Below, piece by piece: positions 8,481-11,518 of a stretch of 64,000 bases of DNA. Made by a program: the position numbers and the translations under genes. The DNA is taken from assembly GCF_040782645.1 (NCBI RefSeq), contig NZ_CP160403.1, forward strand, positions 3,224,001 through 3,288,000, in the 5' to 3' direction. The notes under the pieces are model-generated. The model was not told the DNA's origin. It made no database searches and saw only the letters and a program-made list of their open reading frames with translations. This stretch comes from Streptomyces sp. HUAS ZL42 (GTDB taxonomy: Bacteria; Actinomycetota; Actinomycetes; Streptomycetales; Streptomycetaceae). Every line of letters starts with the position of its first letter. Within the stretch, counting starts at the first letter, position 1.

Positions 8481-10112
8481 TCAGCCCATGTGCGGGTAGG
8501 TGTAGTCGGTCGGCGGGACCAGGGTCTCCTTGATGGCGCGGGTCAGGGTCCAGCGCATCAGGTTCTGCGGGGCGCCGGCCTTGTCGTTGGTGCCGGAGGC
8601 CCGGCCGCCGCCGAAGGGCTGCTGGCCGACGACGGCACCGGTGGACTTGTCGTTGATGTAGAAGTTGCCGGCCGCGTAGCGCAGCTTCTCCATGGTGTAC
8701 GCGGCTGCCGCACGGTCGTTCGCGACGACCGAGCCGGTGAGGGCGTAGTCGGACACCGACTCCATCTGGGTCAGCATCTCGTCGTACTTGTCGTCCTCGT
8801 AGACGTGCACGGCGAGGAACGGGCCGAAGTACTCGGTGCGGAAGACCTCGTTCTCAGGGTCGCTGCACTCGACGACGGTCGGGCGGACGAAGTAGCCGAC
8901 CGAGTCGTCGTAGGAGCCGCCGGCGACGATCGTGCAGGCCGGGTCCTCCTTCGCCCGGTCGATCGCGGCCTTGTTCTTGGCGAAGGCGCGCTCGTCGATG
9001 ACCGCGCCGATGAAGTTGGCGAGGTCGGTGACGTCACCCATGGTCAGGTAGTCGACCTCTGCGGCGAACTCCTCCTTGAAGCCGGAGTTCCAGATCGACG
9101 CCGGGATGTACGCCCGGGACGTCGCCGAACACTTCTGGCCCTGGTACTCGAAGGCGCCGCGGGTCAGGGCGGTCTTGAGCACCGCGCGGTCGGCCGACGG
9201 GTGGGCGACCAGGAAGTCCTTGCCGCCGGTCTCGCCGACCAGACGCGGGTAGGAGCGGTACCTCTCGATGTTGGCGCCGACCGTCTTCCACAGGTACTGG
9301 AAGGTCCTGGTCGAGCCGGTGAAGTGGATGCCGGCCAGGTCACGGTGGACCAGGGCGACCTGGGAGACCTCGACGCCGTCGCCGGTGACAAGGTTGATGA
9401 CGCCCTTGGGCAGGCCCGCCTCCTCCAGCAGCCGCATCAGCAGCACGGCGGCGTGGGTCTGCGTCGGGGACGGCTTCCAGACGACGACGTTGCCCATCAG
9501 GGCGGGGGCCGTCGGCAGGTTGCCCGCGATCGCCGAGAAGTTGAACGGGGTGATCGCGTAGACGAAGCCCTCCAGCGGTCGGTGGTCGAGGCGGTTCCAG
9601 ACGCCCGGAGCGTTGGCGACGGGCTGCTCGGCCAGGATCTGGCGGGCGTAGTGGACGTTGAAGCGCCAGAAGTCGATCAGCTCGCAGGGGGCGTCGATCT
9701 CCGCCTGCTGGGCGGTCTTGGACTGGCCGAGCATGGTGGAGGCGGCGATCGTCTCGCGCCACGGGCCGGCCAGCAGTTCGGCGGCGCGCAGGATGATCGC
9801 CGCGCGGTCGTCGAAGGACATCGCGCGCCAGGCGGGCGCGGCGGCGAGGGCCGCGTCGATGGCGTCCTGCGCGTCCTGCTGGGTCGCGTTGCGGTACGTG
9901 CCGAGCACGGCCTTGTGGTTGTGCGGCTGGACGACCTGGAACGCGTCACCGCCGCCCAACCGCTTCTCGCCGCCGATCGTGCAGGGCAGGTCGATCGGGT
10001 TCTCCGCCAGTTCCTTCAGCTTGGCCTCGAGGCGGGCGCGCTCGGGCGAGCCGGGGGCGTAGCCGTGCACCGGCTCGTTGACGGGGGTGGGGACCTGTGT
10101 CACAGCGTCCAT
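8481..10112 (-). CDS. pruA: L-glutamate gamma-semialdehyde (1-pyrroline-5-carboxylate) dehydrogenase
   Basis: A 543-residue aldehyde dehydrogenase of the P5C dehydrogenase group (TIGR01236-like, from memory). It oxidises glutamate semialdehyde to glutamate with NAD+, the second step of proline breakdown. Start ATG 10112 with AAGGAGT upstream. Key segments are ITPFNFSAIAGNLPTAPALMGN, HFTGSTRTFQYLWK, VGETGGKDF and GAFEYQGQKCSATSRAYIP, the last containing the catalytic cysteine. The next gene upstream is proline dehydrogenase. In what looks like the ancestral arrangement the two were 33 bp apart; now 298 bp of tandem repeats with stable hairpins separate them, which could lower pruA expression. 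Confidence 0.95.
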   Translation of the reverse strand: MDAVTQVPTPVNEPVHGYAPGSPERARLEAKLKELAENPIDLPCTIGGEKRLGGGDAFQVVQPHNHKAVLGTYRNATQQDAQDAIDAALAAAPAWRAMSFDDRAAIILRAAELLAGPWRETIAASTMLGQSKTAQQAEIDAPCELIDFWRFNVHYARQILAEQPVANAPGVWNRLDHRPLEGFVYAITPFNFSAIAGNLPTAPALMGNVVVWKPSPTQTHAAVLLMRLLEEAGLPKGVINLVTGDGVEVSQVALVHRDLAGIHFTGSTRTFQYLWKTVGANIERYRSYPRLVGETGGKDFLVAHPSADRAVLKTALTRGAFEYQGQKCSATSRAYIPASIWNSGFKEEFAAEVDYLTMGDVTDLANFIGAVIDERAFAKNKAAIDRAKEDPACTIVAGGSYDDSVGYFVRPTVVECSDPENEVFRTEYFGPFLAVHVYEDDKYDEMLTQMESVSDYALTGSVVANDRAAAAYTMEKLRYAAGNFYINDKSTGAVVGQQPFGGGRASGTNDKAGAPQNLMRWTLTRAIKETLVPPTDYTYPHMG

Positions 10113-10145
10113 GTGTTCCGTACTCCTTGACTTGAGCGGTGTGGG

Positions 10146-10215
10146 TCAGCCCTTGGTGATCATGCTTCGCGCGAAGAAGCGCAGGTTCGCCGGCTTCTCA
10201 GCGAGCCGCCTCATG
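10146..10215 (-). pseudogene. stranded original 3' end of the proline dehydrogenase gene
   Basis: Reading leftwards from 10215, this stretch encodes MRRLAEKPANLRFFARSMITKG and a stop (TCA at 10146-10148). It repeats the last part of the live gene but ends in ARSMITKG rather than LRSVVGHG. It lies 33 bp before pruA. The simplest reading is that this was the true gene end before two 132/133-bp units were inserted upstream. It has no ribosome site and is not expected to be translated. Confidence 0.65.
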
Positions 10216-10480
10216 CTGCGCCCCCCGGGGGCCAACCCCCGGACCCCCGGCAGAAGCCACAGCACAACCCAGATGCATCAGCCATGACCGACCACGCTCC
10301 GCAGGAAAAACCGCAGGTTCGCCGGCTTCTCAGCGAGCCGCCTCATGCTGCGCCCCCCCGGGGGCCAACCCCCGGACCCCCGGCAGAAACCACAGCACAA
10401 CCCAGATGCATCAGCCATGACCGACCACGCTCCGCAGGAAAAACCGCAGGTTCGCCGGCTTCTCAGCGAGCCGCCTCATG
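10180..10480. repeat. 132/133-bp tandem repeat in the 3' end of the proline dehydrogenase gene
   Basis: Two full units (10180-10311 and 10312-10444) and a third copy of the first 36 bp (10445-10480). The units differ by one C in a C-run and one G/A. The 36-bp core is coding sequence of the dehydrogenase (minus strand MRRLAEKPANLR). The ~96-bp remainder of each unit supplies an alternative in-frame end (FFLRSVVGHG, stop) followed by a G/C hairpin (for example CCGGGGG at 10225-10231 with CCCCCGG at 10236-10242). The live gene now stops at 10411, inside the second unit. Confidence 0.9.
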
Positions 10481-11337
10481 AAGTAGCCGTACCAGTCCGT
10501 GCCGTAGGCGGTGTAGACGCGCATGCGGTGGCCCTCGGCGGCCAGCCGCAGGTGCTCCTCGCTGCGGATGCCGTACAGCATCTGGAACTCGTACTCGTCG
10601 AGCTTGCGCGCGGCGCGGCGGGCCAGCTCCTGGGCGATGGAGATCAGCCGCGGGTCGTGGGACCCGATCATCGGGTACCCGTCGCCCTCCATCAGAGTCC
10701 GCAGGACCCGGACGTACGCCTTGTCGATCTCGTGCTTCTTCTGGTGGGCGACCTCGGCGGGCTCCTTGTACGCGCCCTTCACCAGCCGCACGCGGCTGCC
10801 GTTCGCGGCGAGGCGGTGGGCGTCGGCCTCGGTGCGGAAGAGATATGCCTGGATGACACAGCCGGTCTCCGGGTGGTCCTTCCGCAGCTCCTCGTGGATG
10901 GCGAACATCGAGTCGAGCGTGGTGTGGTCCTCCGCGTCGAGGGTGACGGCCGTACCGATGGCGGCGGCTGCCTCGACGACGGGCCGGACGTTGGCGAGCG
11001 CGAGTTCGTGGCCGCCTTCGAGTGCCTGGCCGAACATGGAGAGCTTGACGGACATCTCGACCTTCGGGCCGAGGCCCAGCGGCTTGAGCCGGTCGATCAG
11101 CCCGAGGTAGGCGTCGCGGGCGGCGGCGGCCTGCCCGGGGGTGGTGATGTCCTCGCCGACGACGTCCATGGTGAGCTCGAGACCGCGGTCCGTGAGCTCC
11201 TCGATGATCGGCACGATGTCGTCCACCGTCTCACCGGGTATGAAGCGGTCGACGACCTGCTTGGTCACCGGGGCCGCCGAGATCAGGCGTCGCATCCGGT
11301 CGCTGCGCGACGCGGCGAGAATCACGGGACCCAGCAC
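10411..11337 (-). CDS. proline dehydrogenase
   Basis: A 308-residue monofunctional FAD-dependent proline dehydrogenase (named putB, pruB or fadM in different species). It oxidises proline to 1-pyrroline-5-carboxylate and passes electrons to the respiratory chain. Start GTG 11337 (VLGPVILAASRSD) has GGAGGTG 7 nt upstream. Family segments include LTMDVVGEDI, VSVKLS-like MSVKLSMFG, TLDAEDHTTLDS, CVIQAYLFRTEAD, RLVKGAYKEPAE and IGSHDPRLI, then YEFQMLYGIR and RVYTAYGTDWYGYFMRRLAE. The C-terminal 10 residues come from an inserted repeat unit (see 10180-10480). The gene is divergent from a PucR-type regulator, a usual arrangement for proline-induced operons. Confidence 0.94.
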   Translation of the reverse strand: MLGPVILAASRSDRMRRLISAAPVTKQVVDRFIPGETVDDIVPIIEELTDRGLELTMDVVGEDITTPGQAAAARDAYLGLIDRLKPLGLGPKVEMSVKLSMFGQALEGGHELALANVRPVVEAAAAIGTAVTLDAEDHTTLDSMFAIHEELRKDHPETGCVIQAYLFRTEADAHRLAANGSRVRLVKGAYKEPAEVAHQKKHEIDKAYVRVLRTLMEGDGYPMIGSHDPRLISIAQELARRAARKLDEYEFQMLYGIRSEEHLRLAAEGHRMRVYTAYGTDWYGYFMRRLAEKPANLRFFLRSVVGHG

Positions 11338-11518
11338 GGGGCACCTCCACATACCAACCCATATGAGGCCGATTCCCGAAGATTCGGGTACGGCACGGGG
11401 AACCACCGTGAAACCTAAGGATCCCTCCGATCGTCAGCCATCGACAGCTGTCACGCATCCGTGCGGCAGATCTCAGACAGATGTATGAAGGGGCGCGGAA
11501 TTGGGGGAGAATGCCCGG

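Follow-up and report, generated by a model that had tools for sequence, protein, structure and literature searches.

A tiny hairpin element with duplicated gene ends behind proline dehydrogenase and other Streptomyces genes

The tandem repeat that lies between the genes for proline dehydrogenase and (presumably) PruA in Streptomyces sp. HUAS ZL42 is one case of a tiny hairpin element, here called H, that is seen at many Streptomyces gene ends and leaves the gene whole. It was analysed in a window of 64,000 nucleotides (the whole stretch of DNA studied), drawn from a genome that is a single 9.87-Mb contig and whose close relatives are Streptomyces. In our best reading, to which we give a probability of about one half, a non-autonomous H would have inserted after a TTC near the end of the proline dehydrogenase gene and duplicated the gene end so that a direct copy lies to either side of H, giving the arrangement A'-H-A in which A' and A are the left and right copies. 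The plainer description of the locus, an element plus a target duplication, is very likely correct.

The preliminary description placed a tandem repeat at 10146..10480 and its position is confirmed; the gene lies on the minus strand, and the units of 133 and 132 bp differ from each other by one substitution and one single-base indel (Table 1). Tandem Repeats Finder reports 2.3 copies of period 133 with 97% matches. Each unit consists of a 69-nt gene end with its stop codon, 26 nt of filler and 37–38 nt of H ending in CAGC. The 36-bp piece of gene end reported as repeated is indeed so: from the ATG onwards, copies 1 and 3 have their first 35 nt in common (36 when the preceding C is counted), and they differ at 12 of 69 positions, 2 within the first 42 and 10 within the last 27. 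The tails are also as first reported, with one sequence in both copies of the gene-attached type and another in the third copy, next to pruA, and the distance from the proline dehydrogenase stop codon to pruA measures the same 298 nt, against 33 originally. The proline dehydrogenase ORF matches the NCBIfam ProDh model at 1.7e-64 and 217.9 bits, which is below the model's curated cut-off of 500, whilst the downstream ORF is presumably pruA, as it was named in the preliminary description. The downstream copy has an ATG with a GGGAAGG-like stretch upstream and was considered as a small translated ORF; the differences between the copies are both silent and amino-acid changes.

Table 1. Features of the repeat locus between proline dehydrogenase and pruA (window positions)
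Feature	Position	Strand	Basis or remark
Proline dehydrogenase ORF, ends RFFLRSVVGHG and stop	10411..11406	-	ORF list and NCBIfam ProDh model
TTC codon, insertion point; duplicated segment begins after it	10480..10482	-	TTC-like trinucleotide at many other targets
Copy 1, gene-attached gene end, ATG to stop (stop 10413-10411), tail RFFLRSVVGHG and stop	10411..10479	-	
Filler, unit 1, between copy 1 and H	10385..10410	-	Fillers differ among loci
H element 1, 38 nt, hairpin-forming, last bases CAGC	10347..10384	-	
Copy 2 of gene end, tail as in copy 1	10278..10346	-	
Filler, unit 2	10252..10277	-	
H element 2, 37 nt	10215..10251	-	Predicted fold computed on this copy
Copy 3, displaced original-type gene end, RFFARSMITKG and stop	10146..10214	-	
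Original 33-nt pruA leader	10113..10145	-	Aligns with spacer of H-less relatives
pruA-like ORF, start at 10112	8481..10112	-	ORF list

H is an interspersed repeat family. Its members are about 37–45 nt long and comprise a GC hairpin and then about 11 nt that end in CAGY. The search pattern GGGGTCYGGGGGNNNNCCCCCRG(3-6 nt)RCAG finds 10 exact copies at seven loci in the source genome, where the reversed pattern has no occurrence, and is present in 62 of 150 Streptomyces genomes (the source genome counted). A second draw of genomes gave H in 13 of 28 Streptomyces and, among other members of their taxonomic family, in 11 of 93 genomes; outside that family none of 190 genomes carried the pattern, as against 4 of the 8 Streptomyces in the same draw. 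Copies at other gene ends, for which the preliminary description had proposed a search, are found both in the source genome and in other Streptomyces, and its view that a mini-element sits repeated at a gene end through tandem amplification is borne out. Rfam gave no match in window positions 10000-10600 at E<=1, nor any at gathering score in the six loci tested. No earlier description of H was found in the literature searched, which took in few subscription papers and no repeat database of the ISfinder kind; PMC4681348 discusses stable 3' UTR stem-loops generally, the consulted part of which does not include this element. Tandem units at one further locus (L131, G073:C577) contain an H-like hairpin that ends in CAGG, not CAGY, and may belong to another family.

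Three of the seven H loci in the source genome have copies of a gene end: proline dehydrogenase, a GntR-like regulator and an alpha/beta-hydrolase-like gene. At the GntR-like gene (L089, G000:C1:3575540-3575830) there are three H in 88-bp units and four copies of a gene end of about 50 nt, the final one partial, whilst the hydrolase-like gene has one H flanked by 101-nt copies that are 96% alike. A direct repeat across H was present in 29 of 60 further sites (score at least 45; highest shuffle 31), a sample taken in list order among the H matches listed, with sites fetched earlier left out. In 28 of these 29 the right copy begins 0–2 nt past CAG. The copies are 30–118 nt long in this sample and up to 144 nt over all scanned sites, where the longest are inflated by arrays. 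Only 5 of the 31 sites without duplication at this threshold are of the longer type F discussed below. Over all scanned H sites duplication is seen in 80 of 134; 74 of the 134 (51 with copies) were partly chosen, among them loci fetched for their tandem H, the window's two H and seven proline dehydrogenase loci, and the counts are non-independent because related species have target sites in common. Other GC hairpins of the same loci served as a control and showed duplication in 3 of 246 cases.

Grouping of the 74 first units gave 27 target clusters, a count in which Der appears twice (L114, L217), proline dehydrogenase relatives appear at other points (L133, L207) and the second row of L106 is an array artefact. 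CAG is required by the pattern itself; the base that follows it is C or T for 26 of the 27 clusters. Ahead of the left copy, T occupies -3 in 35 and -2 in 39 of 45 first units, and C occupies -1 in 30; by cluster, the flank is TTC in 13 of 27, TTT or TTA in 5 and something else, with no TT ahead of the copy, in 9. Between the left copy and H the junction varies, with a filler that ranges from 0 to about 60 nt. Many unrelated targets have copy A starting at the right end of H, which is a fixed boundary. The preliminary description had taken the whole non-core part of about 100 bp to be the element; this needs revision, as the mobile-looking part is H with its fixed right end. An outer stem between the filler and the right arm, suggested by single folds, was rejected, since arm swapping gives it no support (own arms pair at 5.36 of 7, a value inside the range of swapped arms, which give 5.29).

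As judged by eye, about 18 of the 27 clusters mark the 3' end of a same-strand gene, and in most members the copies reach or pass the stop codon. The targets include proline dehydrogenase, MurA, the GTPase Der, a DrrA-like ABC ATPase, a TldD-like protease, DnaJ, a sugar-type ABC permease, a PduO-type adenosyltransferase and tRNA-Lys, with the names TldD, DrrA, GntR, permease, hydrolase and proline dehydrogenase given on matches below model cut-offs. (Naming targets by their longest ORF was dropped, as the antisense ORFs of GC-rich DNA misled it.) The copy in the ABC ATPase operon extends over the overlapping start of the next gene as well, two sites (L146, L251) resemble gene starts on the opposite strand and at the tRNA-Lys sites the copy begins in the anticodon loop. 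A duplicated tRNA-Lys 3' half is probably behind the extra unnamed tRNA calls made by ARAGORN at L208 and L227, and annotations may carry false tRNAs at such sites.

Proline dehydrogenase offers a comparison across species. Of 80 relatives fetched, 69 are free of H at this gene and 11 have H or a decayed trace of it. The spacer to pruA in the H-less relatives is mostly 31–69 nt and the protein ends in KG in 67 of the 69, as does the window copy beside pruA, which keeps the original-type end. The comparison of C-termini and spacers that had been suggested at the outset thus agrees with an insertion. Empty-site relatives L058 and L075 were compared with the window, and L075 and L036 are without H beside the carriers L065 and L059. 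Of the 12 loci compared, 10 retain KG in the downstream copy and L079 and L081 have RG there, whilst the gene-attached tail has R or H in place of K in the window and in all 11 carriers among the 80 relatives. The exception is L236, with K in its gene-attached tail: here 72 nt, stop codon included, are the same in both copies, each copy has KG, the locus looks fresh, and the best-matching H-less relative, L085, shows an empty site.

Across the 12 loci, copies that share a locus have on average 1.83 differences in their first 42 nt and copies of different loci 5.1–6.1, from which we read local duplication or homogenisation of this part. Over the last 27 nt the mean differences are 7.6 within a locus, 7.5 among gene-attached tails, 6.5 among downstream tails and 9.4 across the two. 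The gene-attached tails form a lineage of their own, so that in the proline dehydrogenase family tail and H have probably been inherited or exchanged as one block. The proposal that each unit supplies its own replacement C-terminus is not supported as a general rule, the copy being local and in L236 identical over 72 nt. In a quick tree of flanking coding DNA (81 rows, 12 carriers) the fewest changes that account for the carriers are 9, with at least 8 on starred branches, compared with 11.4 for shuffled carrier labels; a value as low was reached in 10 of 500 shuffles. That the carriers are scattered yet somewhat clustered, and have a tail lineage of their own, points to a mixture of gain, inheritance, exchange and loss. 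A different conserved proline dehydrogenase–pruA spacer of 175–270 nt, H-less and with a GACTCCGCCCCCGAAGGGGCTTC-like hairpin, is found in L017, L051, L055, L060, L068 and L076, and in the three of these searched (L017, L055, L060) it has no Rfam match at gathering score.

Type F, a form of about 95 nt, has the same right end as H together with a conserved left part beginning ACTYRGG. It accounts for 10 of the 134 sites, none of which has a target copy, and a DNA search identified additional examples, often straight after TTC or TTT. A search with the left-end pattern gave 10 matches in 7 of 30 genomes, none of them a gene-bearing form; in 8 of the 10 an H-like hairpin follows at no more than about 60 nt, in L293 a variant right end follows at no more than about 120 nt, and in L296 the 140 nt inspected have no visible right end. 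Since type F is without copies and has the right end in common with the A'-H-A sites, the target copy at the latter stands where type F has its left part. One type F copy (L144/L157/L283, G079:C1:478951-479042) lies directly after GTTC within a GTPase-like frame, and the gene looks interrupted. In L266, L286, L293 and L296 a type F left end is followed by a different right-hand part, possibly marking subfamilies; that of L266 has CCCGCGGCGGAGCCGCTGATG ahead of a CCCCGGGA..GCAGC end.

The strongest rival to our reading, which we nevertheless consider unlikely, makes use of this form in two steps: type F would insert without duplication and break the gene end, and repair from an intact chromosome would then overwrite its left part to leave A'-H-A. 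The right end and the TTC-like left flank that type F and A'-H-A have in common fit such a scheme, as does the lack of a copy at all 10 type F sites, and a restored gene end would be selected. The fillers at L267 and L277 align with the interior of type F. However, 48 of the 51 A'-H-A fillers compared with the type F left part are no closer to it than shuffles at the 5% level, so that the idea of fillers as type F remains is unsupported for these 48, and in a casual rather than systematic look no locus was noticed at which some species have type F and others A'-H-A.

An explanation without transposition appears improbable. GC-rich hairpins are obstacles to replication, and replication or repair at a pre-existing, terminator-like H hairpin might have duplicated the gene end locally, which would suit the differing number of units among loci. 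Against this, the last copy in the proline dehydrogenase cases compared runs straight into the original downstream DNA with no H there, and the spacer has no H-like pattern in 69 of the 80 relatives. The rarity of duplication at other GC hairpins of the same loci (only 3 of 246) and the constancy of the right boundary across targets also argue against a purely local event.

AICE-like integrative elements use the 3' ends of protein or tRNA genes, rebuild the gene and are flanked by direct copies of the gene end, and H sites could in principle be shrunken remnants of such elements, with A' and A as copies of the attachment site. The direct copies on both sides of H, the choice of gene and tRNA 3' ends, the rebuilt gene end and the start of the tRNA-Lys copy in the anticodon loop are all in keeping with this idea, but we find it more improbable still. 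The 132–133-bp window units have no room for an integrase gene, one conserved H serves some two dozen different targets, the copies are local in their core region and type F has no copies at all. Moreover, no clear distant copy of the right flank was found upstream of 20 single-H sites (best score 38, control 36), over about 12 kb for 19 of them and 7.8 kb for L163; two of the 20, L149 (proline dehydrogenase) and L152 (MurA), appear by eye to have decayed targets. Tandem repeats are open to mis-assembly, but the single contig, the two changes between the units and the presence of single units at the same proline dehydrogenase position in other species speak against an artefact, which has a negligible chance of accounting for the repeat.

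Returning to the insertion of a non-autonomous H with duplication of its target, we found no larger parent of H in the upstream flanks of the 20 single-H sites or among the left-end matches, and no transposase that goes with it. Y1_Tnp is present in 11 of 20 genomes, including the source genome, and missing from the H-rich genomes G104, G060 and G067; a Y1 transposase as the machinery of H gains no support from this, its presence not following that of H in these 20 genomes.

How A'-H-A might arise can be set out in steps. A trans-acting enzyme would join H by its right end to the TTC|A site of the target strand. Because the left end present in the form of about 95 nt is missing, the free TTC end would be extended by copying A. 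The other junction, of copy A' with the left side of H, would then form imprecisely. Taken together, these three steps are a possible account that we hold with some reserve. Insertions whose copy passes the stop codon, the start region or the tRNA 3' half would be those to survive, because the gene still works. Recombination between A copies would later add units (A-H-A-H-A, as in the window) or cleanly delete the insert. Whereas the arrangement itself is observed, we infer the enzyme, the order of the steps and any present activity. More tentatively, the insertions may represent a one-ended mode, in which a hairpin element of about 40 nt is joined precisely at its right end only and host flank is copied in place of a left end. 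If so, they would be self-healing insertions that spare neighbouring genes, and this would explain duplicated gene ends across the genus.

H was compared with known classes of small element. REP/REP-transposase systems comprise short interspersed extragenic hairpins; H differs in having a fixed insertion boundary and long target copies. The terminal inverted repeats and short target duplications of fixed length that mark MITEs are absent, with copies of 30–144 nt and outer arms that pair no better than swapped ones. Another parallel is offered by the palindrome-associated transposable elements (PATEs) of Haloquadratum, which, in the part of the account consulted, are related to IS605-type transposons and include a 52-bp terminal-only form thought possibly mobile (PMC3119063). 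Like these, H and type F are too short for a transposase, have a near-terminal palindrome and are without inverted terminal repeats. The lack of target duplication in PATEs is matched by type F (0 of 10) but not by the window or the A'-H-A sites, with copies of at least 30 nt, and no IS605-type parent with matching ends was seen for H, the search having covered Y1 genes in 20 genomes. From the parts consulted of PMC6544945 and PMC13393415, Helitron, IS91 and ISCR rolling-circle (HUH) elements likewise have a hairpin near the 3' end and, as in type F, no target duplication, whereas A'-H-A has target copies and type F ends are ACTC...CAGY in place of the TC...CTRR of Helitrons. Type F thus looks like a PATE or rolling-circle derivative. 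A'-H-A, with its duplications and without an integrase, would work like the one-ended insertion of a non-autonomous element.

If the mode of insertion is as inferred, it would be distinct from cut-and-paste, IS605-type and integrase-type insertion. The CAGY right end, the TTC-like target and the exact copies provide clean, countable events for finding the enzyme. For Streptomyces, H is a simple source of duplicated gene ends and of tandem repeats behind conserved genes, and also of C-terminal variation, in which the gene-attached tail is free to drift whilst the old tail remains downstream.
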